From: Verrucomicrobiota bacterium
GTDB taxonomy: Bacteria; Verrucomicrobiota; Verrucomicrobiia; Limisphaerales; UBA11358
Assembly: GCA_028873125.1 (NCBI GenBank)
Contig: JAGWMQ010000011.1
Location: forward strand, 1 to 50,839
Length of the DNA: 50,839 nt
Direction: 5' to 3'
How positions within the stretch are numbered: position 1 is the stretch's first letter; each line of letters opens with the position of its first letter. A program made the translations under genes and the position numbers. The notes below the pieces were generated by a model that was not told the origin of the DNA, searched no databases, and saw only the letters and a program-made list of their open reading frames with translations. Positions 28,669 through 42,266 of this stretch are shown piece after piece.

Positions 28669-29534
28669 CCCAGCATTCGTTTGGCTTTGAGGTTGAAGTT
28701 GATGGTGTAAGTCCGCTCCTTTTCCGTGGAACCCTCGGGGAACGGCGCGATGAACTTCACCCGCTCCAGCGTGCGCTGGACGGAGGCGTCCACGCCCGGG
28801 TCGTCCGACGGCCCGATGATGCGTGCCGAAACCACCGTGCCGTCGCGGGCGATGGTCACGGTGACTTTCACGTTCGCCTCGTCATTTTGGGCGTTGTCCG
28901 GCGGAATCCAGGCCCGCTCATACACGCTTTTCACGACGGCGGCGTAATTGGCGTAGGCCACGCTGCTGTTGCCGGGCATATCCACCGTCGTGCTCGGCGA
29001 GAAGCTGTGTCTTAAATTTTGAATGGCGCTCTGGAAGGCCTGCTGTCGAAGTTGCTCCTGATGTTGTTCCTGCTGCCGCAGATTGTTCCGGGACTGCGCC
29101 GAGGTGGAATGAATCACCTCCACGCGCGTGGTCAACTTCGTGTTGATTTCAATTTTGTGCTCCGGCCGGACCCGTTTTTCCACGCGCCGGGGTTCGGGCG
29201 CCGGTGTCTTGACCACCTCCGGGACCGGCTCGGGCTTCTCGACCCGTTTGGGTTCGGGAGGCCTTGGCGGCTGGACTTCCCGACGGGGCGCCGGGGGCGG
29301 AGGAGTGACGACCGGTTGCGGCGCCGGCGGCGTGGTCGGCGCGGGCGGCCGGGCGTTGCGGACGCCGCTGATGACCTGCGCGTCAATCAGCCGGGCCGGA
29401 ATCACGTCCAGCACCGGAAGGTCATCGGGTTTCTCCCGCGGCGCGAAAAACGCCGGGCCGACGACCAGGAGCACCAGCAACAGCAGGTGCAGACCCACCG
29501 TGGCAACGAAGCATTTTTTTTGCAGCCGGTTCAT
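28665..29534 (-). CDS. TonB/TolA-type energy transducer in the tol operon
   Basis: A 289-residue protein with one N-terminal membrane helix (VGLHLLLLVLLVVGPAFFA), a proline-rich stretch (residues about 65-125, PPAPQPVVTPPPPAPRREVQ), a charged coiled part with many Gln (NNLRQQEQHQEQLRQQ), and a C-terminal TonB-like domain (VKVTVTIARDGTVVSARIIG ... LERVKFIAPFPEG). By position it does the TolA job, spanning the periplasm from TolQR to TolB/Pal, although the C-terminal domain looks more like the TonB/TolA superfamily in general than enterobacterial TolA. It overlaps both neighbours by 4 bp. Confidence 0.85.
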   Translation of the reverse strand: MNRLQKKCFVATVGLHLLLLVLLVVGPAFFAPREKPDDLPVLDVIPARLIDAQVISGVRNARPPAPTTPPAPQPVVTPPPPAPRREVQPPRPPEPKRVEKPEPVPEVVKTPAPEPRRVEKRVRPEHKIEINTKLTTRVEVIHSTSAQSRNNLRQQEQHQEQLRQQAFQSAIQNLRHSFSPSTTVDMPGNSSVAYANYAAVVKSVYERAWIPPDNAQNDEANVKVTVTIARDGTVVSARIIGPSDDPGVDASVQRTLERVKFIAPFPEGSTEKERTYTINFNLKAKRMLG

Positions 29535-29944
29535 CGTGGCGGTTCGGTGCGGAGCGAATAACGCGTGATGCCGCTGCGCTGGCAGCCGTCCAGAATGGCG
29601 GCCACGTATTTATACGGGCCGTCCCGGTCGGCACGGATGTAAACGATCAGTCGCGGGTCGGTCCGGTAATCCGCGGCCAGCCGCGCCAGCAATTCATTGA
29701 CCGGCATCCGCCGCTTGTCGAGCGCATAAACGCCGGTGGCGCCGACCTCCACGGTGCGGACGTCGCGCTTGTCAATCAACTTGTCGGGCTGGCCGCCGCC
29801 GGGGAGCTTGAGGTTGATGCTCTGCTCGAGCAGCGGGGTGGTGATGACGAAAATGATGAGCAACACGAACGCCAGGTCCAGCAGCGGCGTGATGTTGATC
29901 TCGCTCAGCGTCACCAGGTGGCTGCGTTGGGAAAAGCGTCGCAT
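29531..29944 (-). CDS. tolR: Biopolymer transport protein ExbD/TolR
   Basis: A 137-residue inner-membrane protein: NITPLLDLAFVLLIIFVITTPLL holds the single helix with the conserved proton-path aspartate in PLLDLAFVLL, followed by the periplasmic domain with VYALDKRRMPVNELLARLAAD and IRADRDGPYKYVAAILDGCQ. Together with TolQ it converts the proton gradient into work on the TonB/TolA protein. The region just upstream, where a ribosome-binding site should be, is occupied by the end of the IVP-bearing element (29948 onward) and reads CAACCTCC before the ATG, not a good Shine-Dalgarno. Coupling to tolQ may therefore be lost. Confidence 0.92.
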   Translation of the reverse strand: MRRFSQRSHLVTLSEINITPLLDLAFVLLIIFVITTPLLEQSINLKLPGGGQPDKLIDKRDVRTVEVGATGVYALDKRRMPVNELLARLAADYRTDPRLIVYIRADRDGPYKYVAAILDGCQRSGITRYSLRTEPPR

Positions 29945-29947
29945 GGA

Positions 29948-29982
29948 GGTTGCAGGTGAAAGGTTGAAAGTTACAGGTTGGC
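29948..29982 (+). repeat. Left heptamer array of the IVP element
   Basis: Five contiguous units read outward to inward: ggttgca, ggtgaaa, ggttgaa, agttaca, ggttggc. The inner two overlap the end of the IVP coding region. The array is inverted relative to the one at 30392-30426. Confidence 0.8.
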
Positions 29983-30387
29983 GGGCGCGCGCCTGGCTGG
30001 CCTCTTCACGCGCGAATTTTCGGCGTAGCCGCTGAGATAGCGGACAAAAGCCGATAATTTCCGCGAAAGCAAAGCGGCCGCGTCATGCAGCGCGCTGAAT
30101 TCCTTTTCGGTGATGTATCTTTGATCCGACGCAACATAAAGTTGCGACCTGACTTTGCCATTCGAGTCTTTAGCGATATTCAGAAATTGAATGAACTCCT
30201 TCCGGGTGCCGCGCTCGAAACCTTCTGCGATATTTGACATCGTTGAAACCGCGGCGCGACGAATCTGTTCGCGCAAACCGAAATCTTGATGAAACGCGCG
30301 CGGCCTCGTCGCTCCGTAAATCGCTCCGACAAGCTGGCGCGCTTGCTGCCAGACTTCCAATTCTTCAAATTGTCGTGCTGTTGCCAT
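29971..30387 (-). CDS. Four-helix-bundle protein of the 23S rRNA IVP (S23) family
   Basis: A 138-residue protein of the TIGR02436-type family, first known from intervening sequences in 23S rRNA genes and related to the Avd accessory protein of diversity-generating retroelements. The diagnostic parts are FEELEVWQQARQLVGAIY, the mid-helix LREQIRRAAVSTMSNIAEGF with ERGTRKEFIQFLNIAKDS, and SQLYVASDQRYITEKEF. The protein should form a small helical bundle, often pentameric, that binds nucleic acid; its cellular role is unknown. The C-terminal RVKRPARRAPANL extends past the family core into the left heptamer array. Its location inside the tol operon is not explained by function. Confidence 0.88.
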   Translation of the reverse strand: MATARQFEELEVWQQARQLVGAIYGATRPRAFHQDFGLREQIRRAAVSTMSNIAEGFERGTRKEFIQFLNIAKDSNGKVRSQLYVASDQRYITEKEFSALHDAAALLSRKLSAFVRYLSGYAENSRVKRPARRAPANL

Positions 30388-30391
30388 CTTT

Positions 30392-30426
30392 TTTCACTTG
30401 CAACTTCCAACCTGCAACTTGCAACT
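30392..30426 (-). repeat. Right heptamer array of the IVP element
   Basis: On the minus strand, outward to inward, the five contiguous units are agttgca, agttgca, ggttgga, agttgca, agtgaaa. The outermost unit overlaps the first two bases of the tolQ stop triplet region (30425-30427), and the innermost ends 4 bp before the IVP ATG. Confidence 0.8.
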
Positions 30427-31150
30427 ATTCTTCCTCGAGAAATTCCGTCTCCATTTTGGAAACCAGTTCCTGCGCGAAATTGTCCAGACCCACGGTGAAA
30501 ACGCGCAGATTATGCACCAGCCAATTGTAGCCGAACATCGAGGGGATGGCCACCAGCAGGCCGGCGACGGTGGTGATGAGCGCCGCGGCGACCCCTGGCG
30601 CCATGGCCGCCAGGGTGGCGGTGCCCTGCTGGGCCACGCCGCCGAAGGCGCTCATGACCCCCCAGACCGTGCCCAGCAGGCCCAGAAACGGCGAGCCGCT
30701 CACGGCGATGGCCAGCAGGATCAGTCCCGATTCCAGCTTCAACGATTCCTGGGCCACGATGTTTTCGATGGCACGTTTGACGTGCTCCATGTTCTTGAGT
30801 GAGACGGCCTGTTTGCGGCGCTCGCCGCCGGGACCGCGCAGCCGGGCGTCCAGTTGCGCGCAGCCGGCCTGATAGACCTCGTAGAGCGGGCAGCCCTCCA
30901 CCTGCAACTTGCGGTCGAAAATGTCCATCACGGCTTTCTGGGCGCGGAATTCCTCGTTGAAATAGTGGTTCAACCGTCGCGCCCGGCGCATCTGGGCGGC
31001 CTTGTAGAACATGGTGGACCAAGCGATGACGGAAAAGACGAAGAGACAGACGATGATCGCCTTGGCTTCCGGCGTCGCCTGTTCCCAGACGTAGATGAGT
31101 TCCGCCTGGTTTGAAGCGGCCCCCACGACAGCAAACGACAATTCATTCAT
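30425..31150 (-). CDS. tolQ: Proton channel protein TolQ/ExbB
   Basis: A 241-residue inner-membrane protein with three hydrophobic segments: AIIVCLFVFSVIAWSTMFYK, ESGLILLAIAVSGSPFLGLLGTVWGVM (core GSPFLGLLGTVWGVMSAF) and MAPGVAAALITTVAGLLVAIPS. The ExbB/TolQ signature APGVAAALITTVAGLLVAIP is clear. The ATG at 31150 is chosen over the longer frame from 31195 because MNELSFAVVGAASNQ gives the usual short periplasmic N-terminus. It heads the tol operon on the minus strand, followed by the IVP element and then tolR. Confidence 0.93.
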   Translation of the reverse strand: MNELSFAVVGAASNQAELIYVWEQATPEAKAIIVCLFVFSVIAWSTMFYKAAQMRRARRLNHYFNEEFRAQKAVMDIFDRKLQVEGCPLYEVYQAGCAQLDARLRGPGGERRKQAVSLKNMEHVKRAIENIVAQESLKLESGLILLAIAVSGSPFLGLLGTVWGVMSAFGGVAQQGTATLAAMAPGVAAALITTVAGLLVAIPSMFGYNWLVHNLRVFTVGLDNFAQELVSKMETEFLEEE

Positions 31151-31275
31151 GCGCCGACAATTGACCTGGTCGTGAGGAACCGGTGTATCGTCCAAGCGGC
31201 AGGCGGTCGAGCAAATTTCCTGCCACGCCCATTTAGTAGCCCGGACCGGGAAAAAAGCAACACCTTTTTTATTTT

Positions 31276-31345
31276 CGATTTACGATGCGCGATACACGAG
31301 GCTCCGCTGATTTGGCAAACCGCGTCAACCGCGAATCGTAAATCG
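31276..31345. repeat. Inverted array of contiguous heptamers (CGATTTA type) between secA and tolQ
   Basis: The left arm on the plus strand is cgattta, cgatgcg, cgataca, cgaggct (31276-31303). The right arm on the minus strand is cgattta, cgattcg, cggttga, cgcggtt (31345-31318). The outer 16 bp of the arms are complementary with one mismatch, and 14 bp separate the arrays. It lies 9 bp after the secA stop and could act as a transcript-end hairpin, but the contiguous heptamer periodicity matches the arrays around the IVP gene. Confidence 0.7.
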
Positions 31346-31354
31346 TAGATGGCG

Positions 31355-42177: not shown

Positions 42178-42193
42178 CTGAAGAAAGTTGCGG

Positions 42194-42221
42194 TTTTCGA
42201 TTTTCGATTTTCGATTTCAAT
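42194..42221. repeat. Direct heptamer array (TTTTCGA) upstream of dnaJ
   Basis: Three perfect contiguous copies of ttttcga (42194-42214) and a fourth degenerate unit tttcaat. It lies in the 89-bp gap between grpE and dnaJ, beginning 17 bp before the dnaJ ATG. It has no visible inverted partner. The 7-bp period is the same as in the arrays at 29.9, 30.4 and 31.3 kb. Confidence 0.7.
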
Positions 42222-42266
42222 TGCCGTCACCGGCGTTTTGCCGCCGCCGCTCCCGGTTGGCCGGTT

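Follow-up and report, generated by a model that had tools for sequence, protein, structure and literature searches.

The block at positions 29,948 to 30,426 of the window (the whole analysed stretch of 50,839 nucleotides from a Verrucomicrobiota bacterium) is probably one copy of a widespread small transposon-like class, in which an IVP/S23 gene lies between inverted arrays of 7-nt (sometimes 8-nt) words that are private to each unit and matched at its two ends. Such blocks are called IVP units below.

The IVP unit inside the tol-pal operon

The unit and its neighbours comprise the following features.

29948..30426, minus strand: whole IVP unit, from array edge to array edge, the edges being set by analogy with the ends of homology between units L342 and L345
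30392..30426, minus strand: upstream (5') array of five heptamers, in gene orientation AGTTGCA AGTTGCA GGTTGGA AGTTGCA AGTGAAA
29948..29982, plus strand: downstream array of five degenerate heptamers, inverted relative to the upstream one, ggttgca ggtgaaa ggttgaa agttaca ggttggc
29971..30387, minus strand: IVP/S23 four-helix-bundle protein of 138 aa (PF05635, TIGR02436), its 3' end running into the downstream array
30425..31195, minus strand: tolQ (MotA/TolQ/ExbB), upstream neighbour, by profile match
29531..29944, minus strand: tolR (ExbD/TolR), downstream neighbour, by profile match, starting 3 nt past the unit

An earlier note on this DNA had reported both arrays, and on re-reading of the sequence its coordinates and heptamers proved exact to the base. 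The fit that it described between the two tol genes was also found: the TAG stop codon of tolQ takes its AG from the right array, and 3 nt separate the left array edge from the tolR ATG. The genes tolA, tolB and pal come after tolR, and the unit lies inside the tol-pal operon. Profile comparison agrees with the family that the note had named for the gene between the arrays, with scores of 112.7 bits for PF05635 (E=1.2e-32, Pfam cut-off 33.8) and 107.1 bits for TIGR02436 (E=5.2e-31, cut-off 24); as these exceed the curated cut-offs, the gene is a member of the 23S_rRNA_IVP family, which first became known through fragmented ribosomal RNA. Its best solved-structure match is XCC0516 (2GSC), followed by 2RLD, and each entry contains five chains. 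The title of the XCC0516 publication, as cited in PMC10053308, describes five four-helix bundles in one assembly.

The IVP gene is the sole gene between the arrays. No transposase was found in the unit by the list of open reading frames and Pfam, and no recombinase in or beside it. The left arm is more degenerate than the right. The two arms score 16 as a pair; in the rest of the window, 1963 segment pairs with equal spacing all stayed below that value. The statistical weight for the arrays comes from the family-wide comparison rather than from this copy by itself.

Inverted arrays across the IVP family

In the genome of the window, examined in sampled stretches, there are seven IVP matches, six of which lie within inverted arrays with six different words and co-oriented neighbours. 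These six units, with neighbours named from the flanks, are as follows.

the window unit, between tolQ and tolR
a unit between cysD and cysN, word AAGTTGG
a unit before aroA, word TTTTGAA
a unit beside a secretion gene, word AGTCCGT
a unit before an ABC permease gene, word ATGGATT
one further unit, word TCGAACA

IVP genes were detected in 26 of the 30 relatives of this genome; the genome scan used a narrower alignment, the family-wide IVP alignment being too diverse. The earlier note had proposed to look for arrays around TIGR02436-type genes in the same genome and its relatives, and beyond the six own-genome cases such arrays were found on a much wider scale. Inverted arrays with a period of 7 (sometimes 8) and a score of at least 15 enclose 205 of 234 IVP genes, while only 12 of 640 other small ORFs in one relative pass the same score. 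The 234 genes are units with usable flanks from the order of the window genome, many other phyla, Xanthomonadaceae and cyanobacterial plasmids, and they are phylogenetically non-independent. About 12% of IVP genes have no recognisable arms (for example L007 and L295).

The two ends of a unit resemble each other far more than the ends of different units do. When the upstream flanks of 80 units were each compared with the reverse-complemented downstream flank of the same unit, the median score was 19, and mismatched pairs averaged 9.5. A further 80 loci, spread over many phyla (Acidobacteria, Bacteroidota, Proteobacteria, Planctomycetes, Clostridia and CPR among them), gave an own-pair median of 23 and a cross-pair mean of 9.3, with a period of 7 in 65 loci and of 8 in 12. 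Self-identity of the arms was 0.68 at lag 7 and 0.66 at lag 14, against 0.24-0.33 at the remaining lags. Arms are mostly 4-5 heptamers long, and the upstream coding strand is G-rich (G exceeds C in 168 arms, C exceeds G in 23). The inverted-array architecture is family-wide.

Position in operons and matching of the words

Orientation was judged from open frames, for unambiguous neighbours only, many GC-rich cases being ambiguous: 63 of 73 IVP units are co-directional with the gene before them (63:10) and 61 of 74 with the gene after them (61:13). The array starts at a median of 0 nt from the upstream stop codon, and the next ATG follows at a median of +5 nt. The units occupy gaps between cistrons and mostly share the operon's direction. 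Selection against gene disruption, together with the need for an operon transcript, may explain this placement without any choice of target.

How constant is the word itself? Among 197 clear units we counted 149 distinct upstream words; the word is unlike between units and alike at both ends of one unit. Even at the same junction it differs by species: in Xanthomonadaceae the unit between accB and accC carries GGGAATC, GGGATTC, GTGAATC or GGGAATG, and the one between carA and carB carries GGACTCG, GGACCCG or GAGGCCA. A unit's own arms matched each other better than the average cross pair in 17 of 17 accB-accC units and in 9 of 9 carA-carB units, the latter set being chosen by sequence motif and including L203, possibly not a member. 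The earlier note had suggested that an enzyme acting in trans may read the repeats as iterons; a word that is free to change while the ends keep matching speaks against a single fixed sequence being recognised. At accB-accC, the XCC0516-like protein (2GSC match, E=2e-39) has a dN/dS of about 0.2 and is under purifying selection. We also considered the heptamers as stop signals in all frames, 7 not being a multiple of 3, and rejected this idea: their stop content is 0.40, as in shuffled heptamers (0.40).

The matched ends could instead belong to an RNA element. The arms would pair in the polycistronic mRNA, RNase III would cut the stem and the IVP protein would bind its own stem; RNA selection would keep the complementarity, insertion in an operon would be harmless, and mobility would be rare and incidental. 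The tight, co-directional placement inside operons fits this explanation, as does the predicted RNA fold of the window unit, in which the two arms form the outermost stem (z -2.19), and RNase III does cut the Coxiella IVS (PMC4990558). Against it, changes compatible with G-U pairing on the transcript strand are not in excess among arm mismatches (248 vs 293), and the need for a stem leaves the gene-less hairpins, the solo arrays and the strict 7-nt period unexplained. We consider the RNA element unlikely. Because the G-U excess is missing, the matching of arms seems to reflect copying or folding of the DNA and not selection on the RNA, although this test is an indirect one.

Evidence for movement

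The genome G165 has two paralogous units, L342 and L345, at unrelated sites. Their homology, with L345 internally deleted, runs from AGTTCGT(A/G)GTTCGTACGAGG to CGTACGAACTACGAACT, which are the outer array edges. The L345 site is empty in the related genomes L354, L357, L358 and L360, and in L359 it is taken by an inverted array that has no gene and belongs to another family. The units of Trichormus (L269) and Nostoc (L272) are likewise homologous within the unit only. Arms are common to 52% of pairs at non-homologous sites with more than 65% protein identity, and to 0.6% of those with less than 35%. The IVP unit moves as DNA, and the array edges are its ends. The discrete mobile unit without transposase which the earlier note had suspected is thereby upheld by the edges of paralogous homology, by the empty sites and by the joint movement of arrays and gene. 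Copies on plasmids were considered as recent transpositions and set aside, since both the Calothrix copies and the Trichormus/Scytonema pair have their surroundings in common and are uninformative on boundaries.

Of 30 genomes, 3 have an IVP unit at the tolQ-tolR junction and 19 have just a short empty gap; in 4 the gap holds inverted arrays without a gene, and in 4 another small gene. The earlier note had suggested a search for the empty site here, and had held that a fixed operon member at this position, with no arrays elsewhere, would speak against mobility; the gene occupies this position in only 3 of the 30 genomes, and arrays flank IVP genes at many other sites. Since the three units carry similar words, one old insertion followed by losses is as likely at tolQ-tolR as repeated insertion. 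Many copies occupy one and the same junction across related species, and a large part of the pattern is therefore old and inherited.

No target-site duplication was seen at the L342, L345 and tolQ-tolR sites, where the compared genomes are related at the level of species, not closely related strains, a distance that puts fresh insertions outside the reach of the comparison. Mobility is well supported, the enzyme and the mechanism are not: since neither a recombinase in or beside the unit nor a target-site duplication was seen, no known route of movement can be demonstrated.

Gene-less hairpins and solo arrays

Two arrays without an IVP gene lie in the window.

31264..31354, minus strand: gene-less inverted heptamer hairpin with the word ATTTACG, directly after the secA stop and beside tolQ, a probable non-autonomous relative
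42182..42226, strand not assigned: solo heptamer array TTTTCGA in the grpE-dnaJ gap (neighbours read from sequence), a probable relic

The word ATTTACG is also seen in the IVP units L030 and L071 of relatives. In 400 kb of genome G001 we detected 58 arrays of period 7, few at periods 8-12, and none of period 7 in a Markov control. Where arrays come as inverted pairs, they either bound an IVP gene or form a short hairpin whose loop measures 15-80 nt.

Array density follows the number of IVP genes (rho 0.84 over ten genomes). It reaches 14.5 per 100 kb in G001, which has 14 IVP genes, and 10.9 and 10.8 in other IVP-rich genomes; two IVP-rich genomes have fewer, G028 with 3.3 and G022, with its 10 IVP genes, 1.7. 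Of the IVP-free genomes, G011 and G025 had no array in the 252 and 108 kb examined, and G029 had a single genuine one in 137 kb. Of the gene-less arrays in G001, 65% are within 1 nt of one of its own IVP words, against 29-35% by chance, and the unit words of the same genus match them equally well. Gene-less hairpins and solo arrays bearing IVP words accompany the units.

Arrays might also arise as a mutational by-product, slippage producing the arrays and quasi-palindrome template switching the matched arms, with IVP genes as old operon genes in whose flanks the arrays accumulate. Arrays and copy numbers do change fast among Coxiella strains (PMC4990558), and in a Flavobacterium genome array and gene have been amplified locally, head to tail, with decayed copies (the overlapping loci L296 and L300 on one contig, behind a gyrB-like gene, with copies that have internal deletions). 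Template switching across hairpins is a published mutational process which, by the available text of PMC8794818, can create and maintain them. However, such a process does not account for inverted arms at 88% of IVP genes in many phyla and at 2% of other ORFs, for unit-limited homology at unrelated sites, or for the scarcity or absence of arrays in IVP-free relatives. This explanation is improbable, and as the sole cause it is already contradicted. Local 7-bp duplication on repeated insertion was discarded by reasoning, as it would yield direct arrays, not inverted ones.

Transposases and reverse transcriptases in the same genomes

The earlier note had proposed a search for reverse transcriptase, transposase or recombinase genes co-occurring with the arrays. 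Such a relation appeared for one class: over 30 related genomes, with no phylogenetic correction, the number of IVP genes correlates with that of Y1_Tnp matches (rho 0.52, p=0.003), and with neither DDE_Tnp_1 nor reverse transcriptase (rho 0.06 each). General transposon load was rejected as the source of the Y1 correlation, DDE_Tnp_1 being uncorrelated. The correlation is suggestive only.

It may be that a Y1/HUH (RAYT-like) transposase mobilises the unit in trans, with the hairpin ends as its substrate and IVP as cargo or accessory, much as in REP elements. Apart from the correlation, the fold-back ends, the gene-less hairpins and the lack of a visible duplication are REP-like, and Y1 genes are present elsewhere in most of these genomes. 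But no Y1 match was found in the IVP-bearing genomes G007 and G016, G003 has 8 IVP genes and a single weak Y1 fragment, and G026 has 7 Y1 matches and few arrays. Recognition of REP sequences by the transposase is sequence-specific, and the words of IVP units vary too freely for it. We regard mobilisation by Y1 as a possibility on the doubtful side.

The IVP family is related to Avd of diversity-generating retroelements in family and fold (PMC10053308), and the unit might be part of such a retroelement or of another reverse transcriptase system, with IVP acting as Avd. No reverse transcriptase adjoins the unit; G000 has one, on another contig. RVT_1 had no match in G001 (14 IVP genes), G005, G020 and G024, for which this origin is contradicted. 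With no correlation across genomes either, supply of reverse transcriptase in trans was rejected for these genomes, the tie to retroelements drawn in the earlier note is not supported, and we give this explanation almost no credence.

Comparison with known elements and repeats

The closest known counterpart is the 23S rRNA IVS of Coxiella burnetii, in which an S23p ORF comes with GACAGAT heptamers and with terminal inverted repeats that form a 28-bp stem (PMC4990558). Shared with IVP units are a single IVP/S23p ORF, stem-forming terminal inverted repeats, tandem heptamers upstream of the ORF, a length of about 0.4-0.5 kb and a sporadic distribution. The window unit likewise has an IVP ORF enclosed by complementary termini, but its location is the tolQ-tolR gap instead of an rRNA gene. 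IVP units differ further in residing in protein-coding operons, in their many copies per genome and in their gene-less derivatives.

REP/BIME elements with RAYT resemble IVP units in having inverted repeats that flank a gene, dispersed gene-less hairpins sharing the repeat and no target-site duplication seen. In place of a Y1 (HUH) transposase between the repeats, the window unit holds only the IVP gene; IVP units have a four-helix-bundle gene and tandem heptamer ends whose word changes freely. Insertion sequences also carry a transposase gene, which the window unit lacks. MITEs are similarly short and intergenic, with inverted ends and no transposase. Unlike them, IVP units have unit-specific tandem arrays and a conserved gene inside, and neither a cognate transposon with the same ends nor, in the species-level comparison, a target-site duplication was found.

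Several orphan repeats have the same period and are largely intergenic, with inverted pairs in Xanthomonas and Geobacter. The available text of PMC4692102 describes GGGAATC in Xanthomonas as quadruplex-forming, often in inverted pairs and generally apart from mobile elements, and mentions a Nostoc repeat GGGGATT; that of PMC2700814 has paired tandem heptamers and octamers in Geobacter (GGACCGG/MTYCTGA/GTTGCTYN), read as sites of an unidentified regulator, and that of PMC4679880 has TAACTGA arrays in Beggiatoaceae. In these portions of the three papers the repeats are connected neither to IVP genes nor to a mobile unit. We ran the comparison for the Xanthomonas repeat only, the others being likened by description. 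GGGAATC is the word of the XCC0516-type units between accB and accC, and three perfect copies of it occur in 35 of 64 IVP-bearing and in 10 of 84 IVP-free Xanthomonadaceae (p=2.5e-8). One of these ten, G142, has 62 hits of the three-copy pattern. Arrays may outlast the gene in such carriers, or the gene was missed.

The IVP unit works like an IVS or a REP-type element, yet it has neither the location of an IVS, nor the transposase of REP/RAYT systems and insertion sequences, nor the reverse transcriptase of diversity-generating retroelements. We know of no transposon class whose ends are set by period and mutual match instead of a fixed sequence. A published description of IVP units as such a class was not found in literature with thin coverage of subscription journals and preprints (the earlier note knew of none either), and novelty is provisional. 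The parts are known; provisionally, the novelty lies in the class itself, seen throughout bacteria, in which IVP genes are bordered by arrays whose words vary freely yet match at both ends. If the 23S IVS is taken as the type specimen, the case is a milder one, IVP units being a variant of the IVS kind.

A possible mechanism

The pentameric IVP protein would bind folded or tandem arrays, and would promote the spread or upkeep of the element with enzymes supplied in trans. A single-strand or hairpin route is the route of movement that we favour, with low confidence, because no duplication was seen, the ends fold back, no reverse transcriptase is needed, and abundance follows Y1 rather than DDE transposases. 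Slippage would renew the arrays, and template switching across the hairpin would copy one arm onto the other, giving matched ends. Hypothetically, the five heptamers per arm correspond to five protomers. The 23S rRNA IVS would then be the same kind of element, caught in an rRNA gene.

A more general proposal, quite conceivable if somewhat short of probable, is that IVP units are bacteria-wide transposase-less elements with free but matched heptamer ends, spread or maintained by the pentamer with one protomer per heptamer, and that the 23S IVSs and the repeats of Xanthomonas, Nostoc, Geobacter and Beggiatoaceae are their members or debris. The role of IVP/S23, the origin of the 23S rRNA IVS and the dispersed heptamer arrays of unrelated bacteria would share one likely origin, and IVS movement becomes directly testable with a 0.5-kb construct. 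IVP genes have been reported to co-occur with cas nucleases (PMC3936711); those inside cas loci or other operons may be insertions.

Other observations

Pairs of IVP genes a few kb apart occur in L014, L017, L053, L062 and L074, and in L074 both carry the word AAAGCGG. At the upstream arm of L022 and L070, the upstream gene seems to run into an AAAGCGG array, which would give its protein a basic C-terminal tail. The other small gene in the tolQ-tolR gap (L097, L099, L105 and L106, from four other families of the order) possibly encodes a zinc ribbon. The gene-less inverted arrays of L087, L095 and L101 in this gap, and of L359, are about 100-150 nt long with a 10-11 nt ACACAGATGA-like word. 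They form a second hairpin family with another period, present in relatives of the window genome and in a xanthomonad.
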